From Halanaerobium kushneri (GTDB lineage Bacteria > Bacillota > Halanaerobiia > Halanaerobiales > Halanaerobiaceae), in assembly GCF_900156285.1 (NCBI RefSeq), contig NZ_FTNC01000011.1, positions 1-64,000 on the forward strand: 64,000 nucleotides of DNA. The letters run 5' to 3'. A program made the translations under genes and the position numbers. Shown here piece by piece: positions 19,883-22,198 of the stretch. Numbering within the stretch: the first letter of the stretch is position 1; every line of letters starts with the position of its first letter. Under the pieces are notes generated by a model. That model had not been told where the DNA came from. It worked only from the letters and a program-made list of their open reading frames with translations, and made no database searches.

Positions 19883-22108
19883 TTATAACATTTGATAGGG
19901 ATCTACATCAATACGAATTTCCAGTGATTGATCACCATTAATTTCCATAAATCTCTTTTCAATCAGCTGAATAATATATTCTCTATTTTTAATGGAACTG
20001 AATTTTAAAATTAACTGCCATCTGTATTTATTTCTAAGTCTGCTCAACACAGCAGGAGCTTCTCCAAATTTCTCTAAATATCTATCACTGTAATTATCCA
20101 AAAAAGCAGAAAGCTGCTGGCTGTATTGAGCAGTTTTTTCTTCGTCTTGACCACTGATAATAATATTTAAAAGTCTACAATAAGGAGGATAATTCCTGTT
20201 TTCCCTAACTGTATTCTCTTTCTGATAAAATATTTTGTTATCTGATTCTAAAACAGTATTAATACTATAATGTTCCGGCTCATAGCTTTGAATAATAAAA
20301 TTACTTTCCTTACTATTTACAGATAAATTTTTTAATTGTTTTAATAAAAAGTAATTGTTTTCGGCTGCCCGGAAATCAGCACTATTTAAAGCAGTATCAG
20401 CAGAAATTACAGCTAAACATTTTAATTGATCATAAAACTGATTTTTTATCAAAATTGAGGTCCCAACTAAAATATCAATTTTCCCTTTTTTAAATAAATT
20501 AAGTCTTTTTTTAACTTCACTGCCAGTCAGATCGCTATCTACTCTGGAAATTCTTGCCTTTGAATATAATTCTTTTAATTCTACCATAATTTTTTCTGTT
20601 CCAATCCCGGCCTGCGAAATAAAGCTGCTTCCACATTCCGGACATTTATCAGGCAACTCTTTTTCCATTCCACAGTGATGACAGAGTAATTTTTGCTGTT
20701 CCTGATGATAGTTTAAAGAAATATCACAGCTGTCGCATTTAATTACATGTCCACATTTTCTGCAAATTATATAATTGGCTGAACCCCGTCTATTTAAAAA
20801 CAAAATAACTTTATTGTTATCAGTAAGTTCTTTTGTTATTTGCTGTTTTAATTTTTGACTAATATCACTAAGATTTCCTTTTTCAATCTCTTTTCTCATG
20901 TCAATAATTTCTGTTTTAAGCTGACTCTTTTCAGCTTTAAAATTCAAATAATTATACTTGCCTTTTTGGGCAAGATATTTGCTTTCCAGTGAAGGAATGG
21001 TTGATTCTAAAACCAATAATGAATCCGAATTTTTAAGTCTTTTAACTGCCAGCTGACGAGCATGGTAAAGTGGATGTTCCTGTGATTTATAACTTTCATT
21101 ATTTTCTTCCATTATGATTACGGCATCAACACGTTTAAAAGGAGCAAAAATAGCAGACCTGGCACCAGCAGCAATCTGAACCTTAGCTTTTTTTATTTGC
21201 TGCCACTGATCAAATCTCTCAGCCGGAGAAAGACTGCTGTGTAAAAAAGCAATTTTATCTGCAAAAAAATCATTTAATTGTTCTAAAAAAATATGATCTT
21301 TTTCGATTTCCGGTACTAGCAAAATAATATTTTTTTCGGCTGCAATTAATTCCTGCACCAATTTTATTATAAATATATATCTTCTTCGATTATTATTGGT
21401 CTCAAGTAGAAATGAATTATTATTTTGATGATCTTCTAAAATTTTTGACAGTATTGATTTTTCCTCTTTATTTAACGAAATATCAATTTTTGCTTCTGCT
21501 TTCAAATTACTATTAATGTTTATCTTTCTCAGCTTATTATCAGTATATAATTTAATTAAACCTCTGTCTATTAAACGGTAAACAGTTTGTCTAGAAGTTT
21601 CAGCAATATCTAAAACTGCCTTTAATTTATGATCTTGATTCTTATTCTCCAGCAGATACTTGAGAATTAAATACTGTTTTGGAGCTCTTCTTTCAATTTT
21701 CTTAAGTTCAGATTTAAAATCACTAACTTCTGGATTCAATTTAAGCATCTCAATCTGCTTTTTTTTGATTTTACCGTCAGTTATCCCTGGTGGCAAAGCA
21801 CTTTTAATAACCTGAGCTAGATAAGCATGATAATAAGAAGCAGTCCAATAAAAAAGTTCCAGTAAATTCTGGTCAAAAAAACTTTCTTGATAAAGTAGAG
21901 ATTCAACTTTTTTTAATTTTGACTTATCTACATCGGATCTGGCATCCGTTTCCACCACAAAAGCTGTAAGTTTACGTCTTCCGAATGGAACCCGAACCAG
22001 CTGCCCAATTTTAATCTTTGAATTTAATTCCTCAGGCAGCAGATAATCAAACTCTTTATTTAGTTTCTTTAAAGGTAAATCAACTACAACCTTGATTATT
22101 TGCTCCAT
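19883..22108 (-). CDS. priA: Primosomal protein N' (PriA) with degenerate helicase motifs
   Basis: PriA normally recognises stalled forks and reloads the replicative helicase. The 741-residue protein has the usual layout: N-terminal 3'-DNA-end-binding and winged-helix regions (1-200), split helicase lobes, and a Cys-rich zinc-binding insert with eight Cys (residues 449-492). The helicase core is decayed. The Walker A position (about 233-244) reads FLLETNNNRRRY with no GSGKT, the DEEH box is MEEN (333-336), and the QVAGRAGR motif VI is QLKNLSVN (591-598). DFRAAE (578-583) is retained. The protein is probably unable to hydrolyse ATP but may still act as a structural fork-binding or loading factor. 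ATG at 22108 has AAAGGG upstream. Confidence 0.93.
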   Translation of the reverse strand: MEQIIKVVVDLPLKKLNKEFDYLLPEELNSKIKIGQLVRVPFGRRKLTAFVVETDARSDVDKSKLKKVESLLYQESFFDQNLLELFYWTASYYHAYLAQVIKSALPPGITDGKIKKKQIEMLKLNPEVSDFKSELKKIERRAPKQYLILKYLLENKNQDHKLKAVLDIAETSRQTVYRLIDRGLIKLYTDNKLRKININSNLKAEAKIDISLNKEEKSILSKILEDHQNNNSFLLETNNNRRRYIFIIKLVQELIAAEKNIILLVPEIEKDHIFLEQLNDFFADKIAFLHSSLSPAERFDQWQQIKKAKVQIAAGARSAIFAPFKRVDAVIIMEENNESYKSQEHPLYHARQLAVKRLKNSDSLLVLESTIPSLESKYLAQKGKYNYLNFKAEKSQLKTEIIDMRKEIEKGNLSDISQKLKQQITKELTDNNKVILFLNRRGSANYIICRKCGHVIKCDSCDISLNYHQEQQKLLCHHCGMEKELPDKCPECGSSFISQAGIGTEKIMVELKELYSKARISRVDSDLTGSEVKKRLNLFKKGKIDILVGTSILIKNQFYDQLKCLAVISADTALNSADFRAAENNYFLLKQLKNLSVNSKESNFIIQSYEPEHYSINTVLESDNKIFYQKENTVRENRNYPPYCRLLNIIISGQDEEKTAQYSQQLSAFLDNYSDRYLEKFGEAPAVLSRLRNKYRWQLILKFSSIKNREYIIQLIEKRFMEINGDQSLEIRIDVDPYQML

Positions 22109-22145: not shown

Positions 22146-22172
22146 AAAAAGCCGAAGGCGGAAACCTTCGGC
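22146..22172 (-). terminator. Rho-independent terminator of metK
   Basis: GCCGAAGG (22151-22158) pairs with CCTTCGGC (22165-22172) around a six-base loop. On the minus strand it is followed by CTTTTTAAA. It lies 26 bases after the metK stop and only about 40 bases before priA, so priA must rely on read-through or a promoter that I cannot see. Confidence 0.88.
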
Positions 22173-22198
22173 AGCAAATCAAAAATTTTCTTTATAAT

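Follow-up and report, generated by a model that had tools for sequence, protein, structure and literature searches.

PriA is the bacterial protein that restarts stalled DNA replication, and its need for a motor is an old question, for which the answers so far have come mainly from engineered E. coli mutants and one natural case. In Deinococcus radiodurans, a PriA with defective Walker A and Walker B motifs has neither ATPase nor helicase activity, and binds ssDNA, forks and DnaB (PMC4504706). When the E. coli protein binds a fork, its cysteine-rich region swings and a pore opens for the lagging-strand ssDNA, framed by lobe 2, the C-terminal domain and the cysteine-rich region itself; the 3'-DNA-binding domain (3'BD) and lobe 1 add further contacts. 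The PriA-PriB restart route of this species does not need the PriA ATPase, and K230A variants were used in a DnaB-loading assay (PMC10175261). In Staphylococcus aureus, DnaD binds PriA with a Kd of 2 nM and stimulates its ATPase (PMC4909229), while B. subtilis PriA is essential and acts through DnaD and DnaB, apparently as the exclusive route, no other having been described (PMC13220808).

The gene studied here lies in the window, by which we mean the whole 64,000-nucleotide stretch of Halanaerobium kushneri DNA that was analysed. Its features are as follows.

22146 to 22172, minus strand: apparent intrinsic terminator, GCCGAAGG..CCTTCGGC plus a T run, separating priA from the preceding gene, which was read as metK; found by reading the sequence.
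19883 to 22108, minus strand: priA coding sequence, motorless PriA of 741 aa plus stop (TIGR00595 match, Pfam domains, phmmer).
21791 to 22108, minus strand: 3'-DNA-binding domain, residues 1-106, conserved (PF17764, E 2.6e-28), carrying W88 and Y92.
21473 to 21790, minus strand: winged-helix region, residues 107-212, boundaries approximate (alignment and model).
20864 to 21472, minus strand: motor lobe 1, residues 213-415, boundaries approximate, relaxed (rate ratio; 35 of 65 invariant columns kept).
21461 to 21463, minus strand: Q-motif position, Q replaced by E216 (Q invariant in 18 active PriAs; E, D or L in the genus).
21368 to 21409, minus strand: remnant of motif I (Walker A), LLETNNNRRRYIFI replacing LLHGVTGSGKTEVY (alignment).
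21305 to 21328, minus strand: motif Ia, IILLVPEI, kept (alignment).
21140 to 21166, minus strand: motif Ib, GARSAIFAP, kept (residues 315-319, 321 and 323 do not vary among the active and the degenerate Halanaerobium sequences).
21101 to 21112, minus strand: motif II, DEEH changed to MEEN, residues 333-336 (column-aligned with DEEH).
20993 to 21007, minus strand: motif III, GSATP changed to ESTIP (alignment).
20783 to 20800, minus strand: motif IV, FLNRRG, kept (alignment).
20633 to 20764, minus strand: cysteine-rich region, eight zinc-binding Cys kept (PF18319; all eight in 10 of 10).
20435 to 20470, minus strand: motif V, GT kept, KGHD changed to KNQF (alignment).
20315 to 20338, minus strand: motif VI, QVAGRxGR changed to QLKNLSVN, residues 591-598, both Arg gone (alignment).
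19886 to 20188, minus strand: C-terminal domain, residues 641-741, conserved (PF18074, E 2.1e-18), with K694 and Q698 at SSB-tail pocket positions.

The start codon is the ATG at 22108, which is preceded by AAAGGGA and agrees with the start of the homologues; the TTG at 22177 that opens the longest frame was rejected on that account and because it sits at the apparent terminator hairpin, so that automatic start calls for this gene may be wrong. The protein scores 441 bits against the curated TIGR00595 priA model, well over the cut-off of 230.35, matches the Pfam families PriA_3primeBD, Zn_ribbon_PriA and PriA_C above their cut-offs and in the expected order, as well as Helicase_C, and aligns by phmmer with the Klebsiella and E. 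coli PriA crystal chains over nearly its whole length (E 2e-90). Its best match is to the PRK05580.1-3 models (590 bits), and not to the PRK14873 models, which we take to be those of the actinobacterial-type PriA (at most 165 bits), both scores lying below the models' own strict cut-offs. Horizontal acquisition from another PriA type is ruled out by the tree and by these model scores. The gene branches with the PriAs of its order and is the sole copy: a priA profile search of the genome gave no second PriA-level match, the remaining hits falling far under the cut-off, with a RecG gene and an Mfd-sized frame as the strongest of them.

We aligned the protein column for column with 18 intact PriAs of the Halanaerobiales. 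Motif I reads ETNNNRRRY, and FLLETNNNRRRY (residues 233-244, positions 21377-21412) stands in the columns occupied by GVTGSGKT; GRxGR of motif VI is replaced by KNLSV; and the losses extend to the Q-motif Gln, to SAT in motif III and to KGHD in motif V. Motifs Ia, Ib and IV, GxGT, the GT of motif V and the eight cysteines are kept. Such a pattern is not due to chance, because the lost columns are invariant in 18/18 intact PriAs of the order. As SF2 helicase motifs are generally assigned, those lost are the ones predicted to contact ATP, and most of those expected at the DNA are retained. The protein thus lacks the signature of an active PriA helicase (GxGKT, DEEH, SAT and GRxGR), and we file it as a PriA orthologue rather than a PriA helicase because the SF2 motor motifs are absent; by comparison with PMC4504706 it is a PriA pseudohelicase. 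An earlier note on this DNA had claimed the loss of Walker A, DEEH and motif VI, without frameshift or stop and with the PriA fold and eight zinc cysteines kept, and had asked for a search for an intact second PriA. All of this held: the three sets of coordinates are exact against the 18 intact PriAs, ten close relatives are in the same state with open frames of the same length, Pfam domains, predicted fold and cysteines (all eight in 10/10) agree, and the profile search found no second copy.

The distribution of the loss points to a single origin. Our sample of the order comprised 38 genomes, 36 of which gave a PriA match, and 29 full-length PriAs were compared. The motifs are missing in ten Halanaerobium genomes with a full-length PriA and in one genome of a sister genus (L017), and intact in the other 18, including one from the same family (L018), which is why an order-wide loss, raised as a check by the same note, was rejected. 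In the tree, the degenerate PriAs group together with a support of 100; L018 is their sister and the others fall outside. Because this single clade is nested among intact relatives, one loss explains them all. The L017 protein is intermediate: it has lost the P-loop and motif VI but still has Arg 584, the motif III Thr, the Q-motif Gln and, in DEEH, the Asp and the His, which suggests that the P-loop and motif VI would have been lost first.

Very probably, in our view, the window gene encodes the sole PriA of this bacterium, a pseudohelicase kept as a fork-recognising scaffold for helicase loading by DnaD and DnaI. The ATP pocket would have been lost a single time, before Halanaerobium and its sister genus diverged, and from this we infer a protein incapable of ATP hydrolysis and of DNA unwinding. 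Its most likely task is to find abandoned forks, where it would presumably hold the lagging-strand ssDNA in the manner of E. coli PriA, between lobe 2, the cysteine-rich region and the C-terminal domain. It would then hand over to DnaD, to the loader of DnaI type and to the replicative helicase, whose genes lie side by side at another locus. Where the lagging arm is duplex, a different enzyme would first have to expose ssDNA, and for this RecG and PcrA are resident candidates. No result here conflicts directly with this reading; the loss was probably costly, because DnaD stimulates the S. aureus ATPase and because ATPase/helicase activity, going by the title of a 1999 report by Masai, reportedly matters for inducible stable replication.

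The proposed scaffold role fits the retention of the fork-binding parts together with an intact DnaD/DnaI set. A dnaD-like gene, a DnaI-type AAA+ loader and a DnaB-type replicative helicase are clustered at G000:C14, the loader with intact Walker motifs (GPIGSGKS, LLIDDLG) and the DnaD-like protein with YxxxIxxxW; the same trio is found in the nine other genus members examined, in the L017 genome and in the intact sister. One genome (G005, with L102) has dnaD and dnaB-type genes, and the adjoining DnaI-like GxxGSGK frame of the other genomes examined was not found there. The alternative loader DciA is absent in 37 of the 38 genomes of the order, the sole match being L097 (G030). A lower number of detectable DnaD C-terminal repeats in the degenerate clade was considered and dropped, several genomes with an intact PriA being alike in this. 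Many Halanaerobium genomes also carry several IS21-type istB copies, some interrupted by stops (G000:C12, C19, C28 and many contigs of the genus).

As to the helicases, RecG has intact motifs (GDVGSGKT, DEEH/DEQH, QLRGRVGR) in all ten genus members and L017, and is equally common in relatives with an intact PriA; a UvrD-family protein of PcrA size is present in every member of the family, and the UvrD-family search showed no gain matching the PriA motor loss. RecQ is a weak candidate as replacement, being absent in G011, G012, G018 and the sister G022. In the families tested (RecG, UvrD/PcrA and RecQ), no helicase was seen to have been gained alongside the loss.

Could PriA instead have left replication restart for another DNA-binding job, with restart proceeding by another route? 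The motor columns themselves give this idea some substance. The 18 active PriAs have 163 invariant columns. All ten genus members preserve 87 of these, and 48, clustered in and around the ATP motifs, are essentially lost; 12 of the lost columns now carry a different residue that is fixed in nine or more of the ten (for example K270, V310, E368 and L592). Such residues in the dead pocket could be the sign of a new function or a new partner. The positions K270, V310, E368, Y446 and L592 share this history, invariant in active PriAs, changed, and invariant again in the genus. Re-fixation hints at a new structural constraint in the pocket, which may possibly have been rebuilt at these five positions. 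Against a new job, the protein still has the surfaces expected at DNA, and W88, Y92, K694 and Q698 at the SSB-pocket positions; DnaD and DnaI are still encoded, the alternative loader DciA is absent, and restart in Bacillus apparently runs exclusively through PriA-DnaD-DnaB (PMC13220808); we therefore regard it as improbable. The pocket match is itself a soft point: W88 and Y92 of the 3'BD, equivalents of two SSB-tail pocket residues of Klebsiella PriA, are invariant in the degenerate clade, and three of the five Klebsiella residues are matched (W88, Y92, Q698) with K694 replacing an Arg, but S. aureus PriA is without most of these residues (PMC5531588).

Still less probable is a motor that continues to work with rebuilt motifs around an unconventional ATP site. 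The AlphaFold model of the window PriA (29-sequence alignment; mean pLDDT 85, pTM 0.85) has PriA structures as its best Foldseek matches (4nl4, E 7.6e-52), and a second structural aligner also gives 4nl4 (Z 30.0 over 680 residues, rmsd 5.3), with Mfd motor domains tying over about 340-370 residues. By this prediction the RecA-like helicase lobes continue to fold, and the EE pair of motif II is kept in nearly all sequences, which together with the newly fixed K270, V310, E368 and L592 is what such a site would have in its favour. However, the P-loop glycines and catalytic Lys are not conserved, a Lys occupying the catalytic column in one genus member of ten, the Asp of the DEAH box and both motif VI arginines are gone, and a single K-to-R change abolishes the ATPase of E. 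coli PriA, according to a statement quoted in PMC4504706.

The domains and motifs expected to contact and grip fork DNA are under purifying selection. In the four closest degenerate pairs of the genus, dN/dS is 0.12-0.19 for the whole protein and 0.11-0.16 for lobe 1, against 0.06-0.12 and 0.04-0.10 in active pairs, values that are approximate because some synonymous distances are near saturation. A more robust measure is the protein distance divided by the RecG distance in the same genomes, taken over five independent pairs per set. On this measure, the degenerate/active rate ratio is 0.69 (95% CI 0.50-0.98) for the 3'BD, 1.15 (0.83-1.50) for the winged helix and 1.13 (0.80-1.55) for the C-terminal domain, compared to 2.69 (2.12-3.41) for lobe 1, 2.97 (2.26-3.92) for lobe 2 and 1.72 (1.19-2.59) for the cysteine-rich region. 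The motor is therefore relaxed and the DNA-binding and assembly domains are not; with its faster-evolving motor lobes, the protein is thus partly under relaxed constraint. Tree, dN/dS and domain rates together bear out the earlier proposal of a long-standing ATPase loss with selection on the rest, and its dN/dS check returned purifying selection with relaxed motor lobes. The decay of a dispensable PriA towards a pseudogene, for which motor lobes evolving 2.7-3.0 times faster than in active PriAs and a somewhat raised dN/dS might speak, is the least credible alternative and is largely refuted by the dN/dS of 0.12-0.19, since the frame is open and free of stops in all 11 full-length genus and sister copies, the rates of the DNA-binding and C-terminal domains do not exceed those of active PriAs, 87 of the 163 order-invariant residues, every zinc Cys among them, are kept in 10/10, and 12 columns are re-fixed in at least nine of ten.

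Loss of the motor is not confined to this clade. Our survey of the phylum covered 299 genomes in 214 genera, low scorers being chosen by the best E-value per genome among the matches listed, and is blind to mild losses such as K to R. Full-length PriAs among these matches align to the priA model from position 1 or 2. Two full-length PriAs (L125, L128) are without P-loop and motif VI, and four other low scorers (L126, L127, L129, L130) were discarded as contig-end fragments. In family f116, all three matched genomes (L125, L140, L141), and in the order of G267 all 16 (L128, L142-L156), have as their only detected PriA one without P-loop, KGxD and motif VI, and four PriAs of f127, sister family to f116 in the same order, are intact. 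In a tree with the motif columns excluded, Halanaerobium stands clearly apart from both groups, so that sequence comparison puts the number of losses in the phylum at no less than two, and the intact f127 within the order of f116 favours two losses rather than one for f116 and the G267 order. Two further genomes carry two PriA-type genes (L118 with L131 and L135 in G232; L119 with L132 in G317), a recognisable P-loop being kept in both; the second copy of G317 matches only part of the priA model.

The f116 and G267-order proteins resemble that of Halanaerobium in having lost P-loop, KGxD and motif VI while keeping all eight Cys and the core of motifs Ib and IV, as all three lineages do; they differ in forming a separate clade or clades, in being mostly shorter (open frames of about 650-780 aa) and, for several, in retaining a partial DEEH. 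In 29 intact PriAs, 103 columns are conserved to 95% or more; of these the three lineages have lost 25, 25 and 31, with 12 lost in all three, including the Q-motif Gln, the T and GKT of the P-loop, the G and D of KGxD and the G and R of GRxGR. The overlap is far from random (P of 7e-5 for Halanaerobium and f116, 4e-8 for Halanaerobium and the G267 order, 6e-7 for f116 and the G267 order), somewhat optimistically so because columns were treated as independent. The other two groups thus appear to have lost the same motor residues separately from Halanaerobium. We consider it rather likely that motor loss is recurrent in the phylum, in at least two and probably three independent lineages that gave up the same ATP-site residues and kept the fork-gripping body, so that PriA would be essential to DnaD-type restart for recognition and assembly rather than for unwinding.

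Natural losses that struck the same residues independently reveal what selection preserves in PriA and what it can do without. Degenerate and intact pairs offer a clean comparison for compensating changes in DnaD, SSB, RecG and PcrA, and cultured Halanaerobium species allow one to ask what prepares forks when PriA cannot unwind them. PriA pseudohelicases were already known; the Halanaerobium-type lineages and their convergence appear to be new, as we found in the open-licence literature no report of motor loss in Halanaerobium PriA and no paper linking the two.

In its domain order, its zinc region and its DnaD and DnaI-like partners, the Halanaerobium system has much in common with the PriA-DnaD-DnaB/DnaI primosome of Bacillus and Staphylococcus, but S. 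aureus PriA works as an ATPase, which DnaD stimulates (PMC4909229), whereas the Halanaerobium protein has no recognisable ATP site. The E. coli K230A variant (PMC10175261) is likewise a motor-dead scaffold for helicase loading, a role that Halanaerobium PriA would share; it is, however, engineered, with a pocket otherwise intact and PriB/DnaT as partner in place of DnaD. The Deinococcus parallel drawn by the earlier note is apt, D. radiodurans having a natural PriA pseudohelicase (PMC4504706) in which Walker A and B are defective as they are in Halanaerobium, where inactivity is read from motifs. The extent differs: in D. radiodurans the Walker A Lys is changed to Arg and Walker B is poor, whereas in Halanaerobium the whole P-loop, DEEH, motif III, KGHD and both motif VI arginines are gone. 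The two losses are also separate, the Halanaerobium clade being nested in the Halanaerobiales and its loader context being DnaD/DnaI. As judged from these alignments, the PriA motor of Halanaerobium was lost separately and more completely, in an organism of the DnaD/DnaI type.
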